DNA of 64,000 nucleotides, taken from the NCBI GenBank assembly GCA_020073665.1, contig JAIQEU010000013.1, forward strand, positions 1-64,000. Reading direction: 5' to 3'. Source of the stretch: Terriglobia bacterium. GTDB lineage: Bacteria; Acidobacteriota; Terriglobia; Terriglobales; Acidobacteriaceae. Positions 21,464-55,753 of this stretch are shown one piece after another (positions within the stretch are counted from its first letter, which is position 1; each line of letters starts with the position of its first letter). Both the position numbers and the translations under genes were made by a program. Below the pieces are notes generated by a model. It did no database searches and was not told where the DNA came from. It was given only the letters and a program-made list of their open reading frames with translations.

Positions 21464-21883
21464 TTACGGCTGGTTCATCGAATTCGGAGATTGCCTCTGT
21501 TTCATCTGCCGAATCATGAAGAACCAAAGCGCTGCCAGAAGGATTAGAGGCGCGAGATTCAGCAACCATGAGGGCCAGCCTTGCTCAGCCGTCTCCTTAA
21601 ACCAAATCTCCACGTTCTTCTGACGAAGGGCTTGTAGCATTCCTTCTTGGCTGGTTGGAGCGGTTACGCTGAAAGAACTGTTGTCTCGGTACGACCCGAC
21701 AATGTGGTTCCTCGAAACCGTGACCTTCACGACGTTCCCGGCATCAACCTGAGACAGGAAAGCGGAATAGCTGATCTCGGGCGTCTTCGGTTGATCCGGA
21801 TTGGCCTTGACAACCTGCCACAAGAGAAATGCCGACAGGACGATCACCAGCCAAAAAACGACTGTCTTTACCGTCTGGTCCAA
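21464..21883 (-). CDS. Standalone FtsH N-terminal (two-helix plus periplasmic) domain
   Basis: A 139-residue protein equal to the first fifth of FtsH and nothing more: helix 1, a periplasmic domain of about 75 residues, helix 2 and a short polar tail; no ATPase or protease follows. Compared with the full FtsH at 50554, both membrane segments are identical over 24 and 25 residues, whereas the periplasmic domain has clearly diverged. In DNA the shared helices differ at many synonymous sites. I chose a TTG at 21883 because it aligns with the FtsH start and has AAGGGAG seven bases upstream; an ATG at 21949 is also open. It lies downstream of clpB on the same strand. Confidence 0.82.
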   Translation of the reverse strand: MDQTVKTVVFWLVIVLSAFLLWQVVKANPDQPKTPEISYSAFLSQVDAGNVVKVTVSRNHIVGSYRDNSSFSVTAPTSQEGMLQALRQKNVEIWFKETAEQGWPSWLLNLAPLILLAALWFFMIRQMKQRQSPNSMNQP

Positions 21884-22012: not shown

Positions 22013-24667
<2,655 letters not shown>

Positions 24668-24681
24668 AAGAACTCCGTTTG

Positions 24682-24831
24682 TAGTTTCGTAATCTCGTAA
24701 TCAGGCAATTTGAAGAGCGGTCACCGCCAAATTACCAAATAACCCGATTACCAAATTGCAAAATGAACGGGAGGCCGCACCGCGGCCTCCCGCATCGACT
24801 GACAACCGGCCACTGACGACTGACAGCTACT
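24682..24831. repeat. Repeat arrays in the hsp20-clpB gap
   Basis: Loose 7- to 8-bp arrays of GTAATCTC and AATTACCA type (24682-24766) lie upstream of clpB. A GACTGAC-type heptad array (24797-24828) adjoins the hsp20 stop. The terminator hairpin lies between them. Confidence 0.7.
24768..24792 (-). terminator. Terminator-like hairpin after hsp20
   Basis: An 11-bp perfect stem CGGGAGGCCGC/GCGGCCTCCCG with a 3-base loop. On the minus strand it is followed by TTCATTTTG, a weak T-run. It may attenuate rather than fully stop transcription into clpB. Confidence 0.7.
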
Positions 24832-50553: not shown

Positions 50554-52455
<1,902 letters not shown>

Positions 52456-52716: not shown

Positions 52717-53274
52717 TTAAGTGACCGGGAGGGGACGGTTTGCGGCCGCAATATGAGGCAGGTTCCGCCCCGTTTGCTCGACCGACCCCAAGCCATAGCC
52801 AACCAGGAACGCCTCGTCCACCAGGAACCCGAAATAATCAGGCTGCAACTGCACCCGGCGCGCCGACTGTCGGTCCAGCAGCGTTGCCAGCTTTACCGAG
52901 GCGGCTCCGCGCCCGCGCAAGTCGCTCATCAGGAACTCGGTGGTCACTCCTGAATGCACCACCCCCTCCACCAGCAACACATGCTGGCCGCTGATATCGG
53001 GCTCATGGCTGAAAAAGATCTCCAACACATCCCCTGGACCATTCCCCGGCTGCTTGCGGTATTTGGGCTTGATGAACTGGCAGATGACCGGGACTTCCAA
53101 GGCGCGAACCAAGTCGGCCATGAAGATGAAGCCATTTTCCAGCAGCGCCAGGGCGTGGATGGTCTGCCCGCGATAATCATCGGAAATCTGCCGGGCGATC
53201 TCCCGAACGCGCTTCTGGATCTGCTCTGCCGGGATGACGATGCGTAACTTCTCCGCTTCGGAAGTCGGGTTCAT
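52717..53274 (-). CDS. hpt: Hypoxanthine phosphoribosyltransferase (divergent PRPP motif)
   Basis: A 185-residue PRTase of the HPRT type: 'IPAEQIQKRVREIARQI', 'ALLENGFIFMADLVRAL' and the C-terminal 'PDYFGFLVDEAFLVGYGL' are characteristic. The PRPP-binding motif, usually 'VEDI-x-DTG-x-T', reads 'LVEGVVHSGVT': the second and fifth acidic positions are Gly and His. Activity may be altered. The ATG at 53274 fits homologue length; a GTG at 53310 begins three bases after the tilS stop and is also possible, implying tight coupling. Purine salvage is the inferred role. Confidence 0.88.
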   Translation of the reverse strand: MNPTSEAEKLRIVIPAEQIQKRVREIARQISDDYRGQTIHALALLENGFIFMADLVRALEVPVICQFIKPKYRKQPGNGPGDVLEIFFSHEPDISGQHVLLVEGVVHSGVTTEFLMSDLRGRGAASVKLATLLDRQSARRVQLQPDYFGFLVDEAFLVGYGLGSVEQTGRNLPHIAAANRPLPVT

Positions 53275-53313
53275 TGCGTGGCGCGCCTCCCTTTTCCGCT
53301 TGCTGCTCACACG

Positions 53314-54795
53314 CTAGAGCGTGGTCTCACCAATCGCTAATACTGCTTTCGCCCCATCCTTCGGCCGGAACCGATCTGGCGCCGCAAAACCGCGTACCCA
53401 CACCACTTCGGCTCCGCTCACCATCACCGGCCAGGACTTCCGCTCCGGACCACGCACGTGCCGCTCCTGCAATAGCTCCTTGATCTTCTTGGGAGCCTTG
53501 CTGTGCGCCGGCCAGAAACGATCCCCAGCACGCCAGTTCCGGACCAGGAGCGTGCTGGCCAGCAGCGCTCCGTCGAACAAGTGCTCGGGATTATACCCCG
53601 CGCCCCCGCCCGGCGGGACGACCACCGCCTCAAAGCGACTCCCGGTTTCGTCAACCTCGACGTGTCCGGGGATGGGCAGACGGTATTCGTAGTTGGGATT
53701 CGCTTCCGCGGCAGGGGGGGCAAGTTCAAAACGAAGCTCGCCCTGGCCACGCGTCACGATCCAACCGTCGGGCAGGACCGCTGATTTAGCGCCTCCCGGC
53801 TGGGCTGAACCCAATTGCAGGATTTCCTCCACATGCCGGAATTCCAGGTGCAGTCCGAGCGCGACCCCGGCCGCTCGAACCACCCGCCGTTGCAGAGCCA
53901 AAGGCAGCTTAGCCAGTCCAGACAGGTTCACTGTAGCGCCGGCGTCCCGTCGGCTGTCGGGGCGGCGACCCGCCGCCCCACTCCACACTTCCGGCAAAAC
54001 CCGGGCAACCTCACCATCCCAATATTCTTCTTCGACCCGCGCAATCTCTGCTGCCTCAGCCAGGGCTTCCCGCACCGCCGGGTTCAAATGCCGCTCCAGG
54101 CGCGGCAAAATTCCATGCCGCACCCGGTTGCGAGTATGACGCAAGTCCCGATTGCTCGAATCCTCGCGCCAACCCTGACCCAGTGCGAGAAGATAGGTTT
54201 CAAGGTCAGTGCGCCGAGTCCCGAGCAGCGGGCGAATAATGCAGGCACCTTCCAATGCTGGTTCTTGCCGACGACGGACGACCGACGACTGATGACTGGC
54301 AGGCAACTGCGGATAAATTCCCGCCAACCCGCGAGTGCCCGCCCCCCGAACCAATCGCATCAGCACCGTTTCTGCCTGGTCATCAAGAGTGTGGGCGGTG
54401 GCGATGCGGTTCAACCCGCCTTGTTGCAACAGACCCTTGAAGTATCGGTAGCGCAGCGATCGAGCGGCCGCCTCCACACTCAAATGCTTCTCCGCAGCGC
54501 GCGCTTTCACATCGCCAGATCCACAGTGACACTCCAGCTTGTGCCGCCGCGCCAACTCTTTCACAAACTGCTCATCCCCATCGGCCTCGGCCCCACGCAA
54601 CTGGTGATTGAAGTGAACCACCGATAAGACGATGCCAAGTTCGCCGCTCAGCTCCAGCAGGAGCCGCAGCAACGCGACCGAGTCTGCTCCGCCGGAAACG
54701 GCCACTCCGACCCGGTTCCCCGGCTTCACCAGTTGCTGCCGGCGGACAGATTCCAGGACTTTCTGGGCCAGTTCGTGCACGCGTCCATGGTACAT
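53314..54795 (-). CDS. tilS: tRNA(Ile)-lysidine synthase
   Basis: TilS converts C34 of tRNA-Ile(CAU) to lysidine so that it reads AUA. The 493-residue protein from the ATG at 54795 has the PP-loop 'VGVAVSGGADSVALLRLLL', 'VVHFNHQLRG' and 'TAHTLDDQAETVLMRL'. Two stretches interrupt it: residues about 166-176 ('QSSVVRRRQ') from a heptad array and about 269-286 from a hairpin repeat. An upstream open frame of 59 codons also contains repeat sequence ('TAGEGARATR') and would overlap the neighbouring gene, so I treat it as untranslated. First gene of tilS-hpt-ftsH. Confidence 0.95.
   Translation of the reverse strand: MYHGRVHELAQKVLESVRRQQLVKPGNRVGVAVSGGADSVALLRLLLELSGELGIVLSVVHFNHQLRGAEADGDEQFVKELARRHKLECHCGSGDVKARAAEKHLSVEAAARSLRYRYFKGLLQQGGLNRIATAHTLDDQAETVLMRLVRGAGTRGLAGIYPQLPASHQSSVVRRRQEPALEGACIIRPLLGTRRTDLETYLLALGQGWREDSSNRDLRHTRNRVRHGILPRLERHLNPAVREALAEAAEIARVEEEYWDGEVARVLPEVWSGAAGRRPDSRRDAGATVNLSGLAKLPLALQRRVVRAAGVALGLHLEFRHVEEILQLGSAQPGGAKSAVLPDGWIVTRGQGELRFELAPPAAEANPNYEYRLPIPGHVEVDETGSRFEAVVVPPGGGAGYNPEHLFDGALLASTLLVRNWRAGDRFWPAHSKAPKKIKELLQERHVRGPERKSWPVMVSGAEVVWVRGFAAPDRFRPKDGAKAVLAIGETTL
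53938..53990. repeat. Hairpin repeat inside tilS
   Basis: GGCGTCCCGTCGGCTGTCGG and GGCGGCGACCCGCCGCCCC...CCACAC form the GTGTGG-hairpin type joined to a GACAGCCGAC half. It keeps the tilS frame. Confidence 0.75.
54268..54299. repeat. Heptad array (CGACTGA unit) inside tilS
   Basis: CGACGGA, CGACCGA, CGACTGA and TGACTGG in tandem. On the minus strand it encodes nearly the same peptide as the array at the accD 3' end, in the same phase. Confidence 0.85.
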
Positions 54796-54910
54796 CTGGG
54801 TCCGTGTGGCGCGGGCGCCCTCGCCCGCGGTCCCGGGGAAGGAGCGAGGGTATCGTAGCCTCTGCGTCCTCTGTGCCCTCTGTGGGCAAAGATTTTCTTT
54901 TGGGCGGTTT

Positions 54911-55753
54911 TCAGGATTTTCCCAGCATCCGATTGACTTCCGCATGAGAAGGCGCGCCTTCCAACGCGACATACGTCCCCGATGCCCTTAGTTCGGCGGC
55001 CATTTTGCGCACCAGCCCCAGGGTCGCGCGCATGGGCGCCGAGCCCAGGCTCACTCGGGCCACGCCCAGCTTTTCCAGTTCGGCCACCGAAGGAAATCCC
55101 GGCCCTGCCAGGATGTTCAGCGGGCACTGCACGTCCGCCGCCAGCCGCCGGATGGTCTCCGCATCCCTCAATCCCGGGGCAAACACGCATTCCGCGCCGG
55201 CATCGCGGAACGCCAGCAGCCGCCGCAGAGTCTCCTCATAACGTTTCTCGTCCGTCCCCACCTGCGACAAATAGACATCGGTACGCGCGTTCACCACCAG
55301 CAGCACGCCGCATTTCACCGCCATCTCGCGTACGGCGTGAATCTTCTCCAACTGTAAGGTCAGATCGGCCAGAGGGTGCGCTGGATCGTCAGTGCCATCC
55401 TCCAGATTCATACCCACGGCGCCGGCCTCAATCACACCCCTCGCCGTCTGCACCGCGTCTTCTGGTCGTGGTCCGTATCCCGCCTCCACGTCAGCCGTGA
55501 CCGGCACCTTCACCGCCCGCGCAATCCTTCCCACTCGCGCCAGCATTTCGTCGCGTGAGATTTTCTCGCCATCCGGATACCCCAGCGTAAACGCTACCCC
55601 CGCGCTGGTGGTGGCAATCGCGCCAAATCCGGCCTCTTCAAAAACCCGCGCACTCGCCACATCCCAAGCATTCGGCAGCAGCAGTATGCCGGGGCCGCGA
55701 TGCATCGCCCGGAACGCAATGGCCTTGGCTTTTTGATCGAGAGCTTGCGTCAT
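54911..55753 (-). CDS. Isocitrate lyase/PEP mutase family protein
   Basis: A 280-residue TIM-barrel protein of the PEP mutase/oxaloacetate-decarboxylase-like type: 'LLLPNAWDVASARVFEEAGF', 'ATTSAGVAFTLGYPDGE', 'PVTADVEAGYGPRPEDA' (metal-binding Asp, Glu), 'GMNLEDGT' and 'VVNARTDVYL'. It lacks the isocitrate lyase 'KKCGH' motif. Members cleave or form C-C or C-P bonds next to carboxylates; the substrate is not inferable. It lies upstream of tilS on the same strand, with repeat elements between them. Confidence 0.93.
   Translation of the reverse strand: MTQALDQKAKAIAFRAMHRGPGILLLPNAWDVASARVFEEAGFGAIATTSAGVAFTLGYPDGEKISRDEMLARVGRIARAVKVPVTADVEAGYGPRPEDAVQTARGVIEAGAVGMNLEDGTDDPAHPLADLTLQLEKIHAVREMAVKCGVLLVVNARTDVYLSQVGTDEKRYEETLRRLLAFRDAGAECVFAPGLRDAETIRRLAADVQCPLNILAGPGFPSVAELEKLGVARVSLGSAPMRATLGLVRKMAAELRASGTYVALEGAPSHAEVNRMLGKS

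Follow-up and report, generated by a model that had tools for sequence, protein, structure and literature searches.

The DNA analysed here (the window; 64,000 nucleotides of a Terriglobia bacterium contig) carries on its minus strand a small gene, hereafter mini-FtsH, whose product reproduces the N-terminal region of the membrane protease FtsH: a first transmembrane helix (TM1), a periplasmic domain (PD), and a second transmembrane helix (TM2). The first-pass annotation had described a 139-residue protein of this architecture at 21464-21883; its coordinates and domains were correct, but not the strand (Table 1). The ORF begins with TTG at 21883-21881 and ends with a stop at 21466-21464 of the minus strand, whereas the plus strand of the same interval is interrupted by stops. 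Purine-rich sites comparable to the putative ribosome-binding site of the window (e.g., AAAGGAG or GGAGG) precede the aligned start in several homologues. In one of these (G048), the frame (L042:9746-10402) stays open for 88 residues 5′ of the aligned start, with hydrophobic stretches encoded; as a TTG with AAAGGAG is present at the aligned start, internal initiation is more likely than a fusion.

Table 1. Features at and around the mini-FtsH gene and at the ftsH locus of the window (residue numbers are those of mini-FtsH).
Feature	Position	Strand	Basis or remark
Shine-Dalgarno-like AAGGGAG	21897-21891	−	7 nt 5′ of TTG; from sequence
mini-FtsH gene	21464..21883	−	139 aa: TM1, periplasmic FtsH_ext, TM2, 9-residue tail; TTG start; 13 intact homologues
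Transmembrane helix 1 (residues 3-26)	21806..21877	−	Structure model and FtsH TM1 alignment
Periplasmic FtsH_ext domain with flanking loops (residues 27-104)	21572..21805	−	PF06480; model vs 4v0b
Transmembrane helix 2 (residues 105-130)	21494..21571	−	Alignments and model; segment closest to resident FtsH
Short divergent cytoplasmic tail, in place of FtsH linker/AAA+/protease	21467..21493	−	Alignments vs full FtsH
clpB	22013..24667	−	Directly 5′ of mini-FtsH and on its strand; adjacency unique to this genome, not conserved
Full-length FtsH, presumed partner	50554..52455	−	ORF and Pfam
hpt	52717..53310	−	Directly 5′ of ftsH; the hpt-ftsH site, probable ancestral home of mini-FtsH, is empty here
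tilS	53314..54972	−	5′ of hpt; order tilS-hpt-(mini)-ftsH conserved

The only Pfam domain of mini-FtsH is FtsH_ext (PF06480), recognized at 60.2 bits (cut-off 25.5). A Pfam search of the 139 residues gave no match to the AAA+ domain (PF00004), which the full-length FtsH does contain; the M41 protease domain with its HEXXH motif (PF01434) is absent, the chain ending 9 residues past TM2, and an SPFH/Band 7 domain is likewise absent, PF06480 alone having been found. Against the NCBIfam equivalog TIGR01241 (cut-off 600), full-length FtsH scored 865.2 bits, mini-FtsH only 34.2. By domain, mini-FtsH is an FtsH_ext protein, and by their defining tests it is neither FtsH nor a peptidase M41. An AlphaFold2 model built with 11 homologues (mean pLDDT 75) predicts the alpha/beta FtsH N-domain flanked by two helices. 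Its best matches in the PDB are FtsH structures, that of the E. coli FtsH N-domain (4v0b, the entry title of which specifies a hexameric N-domain) at 1.0 Å over 62 columns; 2muy was also matched. Y39, Q79, E92, and W94 are among the residues typical of the minis and not of FtsH.

Within the source genome (5.4 Mb, 62 contigs), mini-FtsH and the full-length FtsH are the only two FtsH_ext proteins. The compared TM1 and TM2 segments of the two are identical over 24 and 25 residues, as first reported, and their widely different PDs share ∼41% identity. Sixteen and 12 of the codons for these identical residues (28/49) differ, which bears out the earlier argument from synonymous differences that this is not a recent copy.

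Stand-alone copies were sought in 397 genomes of the order, by a scan of GTDB genomes, and in three genera. With that of the window, 14 were recovered, all with intact ORFs; the other 13, a recurrence far beyond chance, all come from Acidobacteriota relatives, and the carriers are some of the soil acidobacteria. They fall into group A (the window, G048, G045, and G145), group B (seven genomes of one genus), and group C (three genomes from the genus that includes L060, a record named Candidatus Sulfotelmatobacter). Across the genera searched, 7/24 (group B), 3/45 (group C), and 1/8 genomes carried the gene. A full-length ftsH accompanies it in 14 of 14 carriers, some of these partners being cut by contig ends. 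The gene is thus old but patchy, and its patchy distribution indicates that it is dispensable in many relatives. A family spanning the phylum was not found: in a survey of FtsH_ext matches in 197 genomes more than 90% complete, the window's genome was the only one with a clear short stand-alone ORF among the matches listed, which did not comprise every weak match. Short ORFs of G054, G072, and G136 were rejected as further minis because they lie at contig ends, and those of L052, L057, L071, L142, L169, and L174 because ftsH is split there by assembly frameshifts or N gaps. Phage or plasmid origin was dismissed as well, as viral contigs held no relative and plasmids one distant FtsH-like match.

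In a tree calculated from the PD only, the 14 minis formed one group apart from 32 full-length FtsHs (support 100/100); with the TM segments included, 12 minis were separated from 81 full-length FtsHs (100/99). Placement of all minis on one PD branch apart from the sampled FtsHs indicates that the duplication was single and old. For close pairs, dN/dS was 0.16-0.22 for the minis and 0.09-0.12 for the N-terminal region of FtsH. Together with the 14 intact ORFs, this shows that mini-FtsH is maintained by purifying selection, as had been proposed for the window's copy. Neither frameshifts nor a relaxed substitution pattern, both named beforehand as grounds for discarding that proposal, were seen; absence from close relatives, the remaining one, applies in part, the gene being patchy but present in 13 other genomes.

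All 10 minis of groups B and C occupy precisely the space between hpt and ftsH, the gene order being tilS-hpt-mini-ftsH with all four genes on one strand (in the window, hpt and tilS are putative names). The interval between hpt and ftsH measures 634-711 nt where the gene is present and 163-477 nt in loci lacking it; the latter, as far as examined, contained no mini-FtsH remnants there. Because two separate groups have the gene at the same place, the hpt-ftsH interval is the likely ancestral site, and this common location suggests that mini-FtsH arose by partial tandem duplication of ftsH. The four minis of group A, including that of the window, reside away from the ftsH locus in four different neighbourhoods. 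For this reason, proximity to clpB and hsp20 is not functional evidence, and the link to protein quality control drawn from it at first is not supported: the other unlinked copies adjoin unrelated genes. A heat-shock island was likewise rejected, as the neighbours are not conserved and no CIRCE site is present. The proposed survey for orthologues beside clpB recovered stand-alone homologues in Acidobacteriota, but adjacency to clpB in the window's genome only. A strong terminator-like hairpin (12 pairs; 24767-24793, minus strand) separates hsp20 from clpB in the window, while no such call was made between clpB and mini-FtsH; these last two may therefore be co-transcribed there. In G045, a ClpB-like ORF (L043:19847-20398) is located ∼9.4 kb from the mini gene on the opposite strand, probably by chance; no other synteny with the window was observed.

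The helices of the minis resemble those of the FtsH encoded in the same genome more than those of other FtsHs. For the 14 pairs, TM2 identity was 0.80 to the own FtsH and 0.707 to the FtsHs of other genomes (p = 2e-5 by free permutation, which is the floor of the test; p = 0.011 when permuted within groups). The PD showed a far smaller effect (0.312 own vs 0.297 foreign; p = 0.019, within groups 0.032), and in the full set TM1 and PD were both slightly nearer to the own FtsH than to foreign ones; an initial comparison of 12 copies had given p = 6e-5 (TM2) and p = 0.10 (PD). Group C minis and their own FtsHs share the TM2 form GTWAPL, with one extra residue, while the minis of groups A and B, likewise together with their own FtsHs, have the form NLAPL. 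Across the family, the helices are not "invariant," as they had been called: identical to the own FtsH in the source genome, where this identity is the highest within the family, they vary from one member to another. In a tree of the helices only, the minis were scattered among the FtsHs, following the resident FtsH, and an AU test on these columns rejected a single mini clade (p = 0.015). The rejection rests on the Sulfotelmatobacter clade (group C), without which it disappeared (p = 0.57), and matching within clades is modest, so that the number of independent events is small. Where TM2 residues are shared, the codon was identical in 0.427 of cases compared with the own FtsH and in 0.441 compared with foreign ones. 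As own codon identity is no higher than foreign, and given the differing codons in the window, a recent copy or recent gene conversion was rejected as the source of the matching helices. If the minis co-assemble with FtsH by way of their helices, this is what one would expect: helices that follow the resident FtsH, without excess codon identity.

In bacteria, the FtsH hexamer is usually regarded as a homo-oligomer under the control of proteins unrelated to it (HflK/C, CIII, and SpoVM). Of these, SpoVM is a small FtsH inhibitor not derived from FtsH. The same is true of the short restraining protein CIII of phage lambda, described as inhibitor as well as substrate of FtsH (PMC1838920), and both differ in this respect from mini-FtsH. 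HflK and HflC are modulators of FtsH in the inner membrane that face the periplasm, as proposed here for mini-FtsH, but are SPFH proteins without sequence relation to it. Canonical HflK (TIGR01933) exceeded the cut-off in only 1 of 20 genomes (G000 and 19 relatives), the rest having weaker matches or none; in most of these organisms, FtsH may therefore operate without a cage of the classical HflK/C type. FtsH itself (HflB), an AAA+ M41 zinc metalloprotease, has in its N-terminal region (PF06480) the same order of helix 1, PD, and helix 2, the same fold, and the same helix sequence; mini-FtsH differs from it in being a separate gene family with a diverged PD and without cytoplasmic linker, AAA+, and M41 parts. 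Mixed assemblies of FtsH-type proteins are known from chloroplasts, where protease-dead relatives (FtsHi) occur in Ycf2-FtsHi complexes (PMC8197885, PMC9020784). FtsHi structures were among the fold matches of the mini-FtsH model, but FtsHi proteins are large, with the AAA+ part kept and the zinc site lost, and mini-FtsH, having no ATPase, falls outside that definition. A search of the open literature found no published description of a stand-alone FtsH N-domain protein, which is no proof of novelty as most subscription papers lay outside its scope.

Helices held compatible with the resident FtsH by selection, alongside a PD that diverges, fit a subunit that has to be part of the membrane ring but presents another outer face. 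On these sequence comparisons, insertion into FtsH via the helices, as first suggested, is the best-supported reading, and we infer that mini-FtsH physically co-assembles with FtsH. That it is an AAA-less paralogue which packs with FtsH protomers through its helices, and most likely restrains or redirects FtsH, appears somewhat more probable than its negation. After a single origin, for which duplication of part of ftsH (its 5′ end) within the ftsH locus is the likeliest route, mini-FtsH would insert into the membrane in the manner of FtsH, pack its two helices against FtsH protomers, and thereby place its diverged PD within the six-fold ring that FtsH N-domains form. Without linker, ATPase, and protease, it would leave fewer active subunits or an unbalanced hexamer, and its PD would offer a different periplasmic surface to partners or substrates; the net effect would most likely be restraint or redirection. 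A protomer with helices and PD but lacking all three other parts is what one would naturally expect of a subunit that inhibits or tunes. In this context, the linker of ∼20 residues past TM2, which mini-FtsH lacks, is essential for FtsH proteolysis (PMC7949044), and the linker sets the activity of Pseudomonas FtsHs (PMC10850787). For the more specific picture, in which a copy of FtsH's own membrane-periplasmic module without ATPase enters the ring, in coevolution with the resident helices, and through its stoichiometry and different periplasmic face tunes or switches the hexamer, we see an even chance. Which way the effect goes (inhibition, redirection, or capacity control) and what triggers it physiologically are a matter of guesswork. 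If the reading is correct, an essential protease would have in this dedicated, motorless subunit a natural dominant modulator, through which one could learn how many active subunits FtsH requires and what role the periplasmic ring plays. Mini-FtsH may represent a device for FtsH control in lineages mostly lacking canonical HflK.

Co-encoding with ftsH and helices following those of FtsH suit docking as well as insertion. Mini-FtsH could thus be an adaptor beside the hexamer, with a PD that binds some partner in the periplasm or membrane and helices that dock outside those of FtsH to deliver substrates, comparable to HflK/C in its placement around FtsH; with canonical HflK so rare, another periplasmic partner is conceivable. 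We nevertheless regard an adaptor as unlikely, because mini-FtsH is itself an oligomerizing FtsH N-domain, for which exchange within the ring is simpler, and because HflK is equally missing from relatives without mini-FtsH. The mini-typical PD residues and the four copies away from the ftsH locus would also suit the other main rival reading, a homo-oligomeric PD ring with an unrelated job, the helices being under general membrane constraint alone. Such constraint, however, predicts neither specific likeness to the resident FtsH nor an insertion shared with it, and FtsH is present in all carriers, all of which renders an independent ring distinctly improbable.

The matching helices might also stem from conversion by the adjacent ftsH, without any function related to FtsH. 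Tandem neighbours at most ∼200 bp apart convert readily, and 10 of the 14 copies adjoin ftsH; one group C copy even has 13 of 21 TM2 codons in common with its own FtsH (p = 0.06), and in the Sulfotelmatobacter clade the tandem copies may have undergone conversion long ago, with synonymous sites saturated since. As a general explanation, conversion has little to recommend it: there is no overall excess of common codons, the PD would have to be spared, and in three of the four unlinked copies the TM2 core has no better match among the sampled FtsHs than the own one. Finally, patchy occurrence and a truncated gene could be signs of a duplicated ftsH in decay, but 14 ORFs intact over long branches, the low dN/dS, a conserved start region, and the lack of degraded remnants at the examined hpt-ftsH loci make this hardly credible, and the substitution pattern by itself already speaks decisively against it.

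Several genomes contain a second, divergent full-length FtsH that was matched weakly (G126:C63, G245:C121, G051:C444, and G019:C8). In the minis of genus g29 (L061, L062, L072, L045, L083, and L128), except that of L047, the C terminus carries a motif resembling PPQESKPRFGP, which is missing from the remaining minis and possibly serves as a binding tail.
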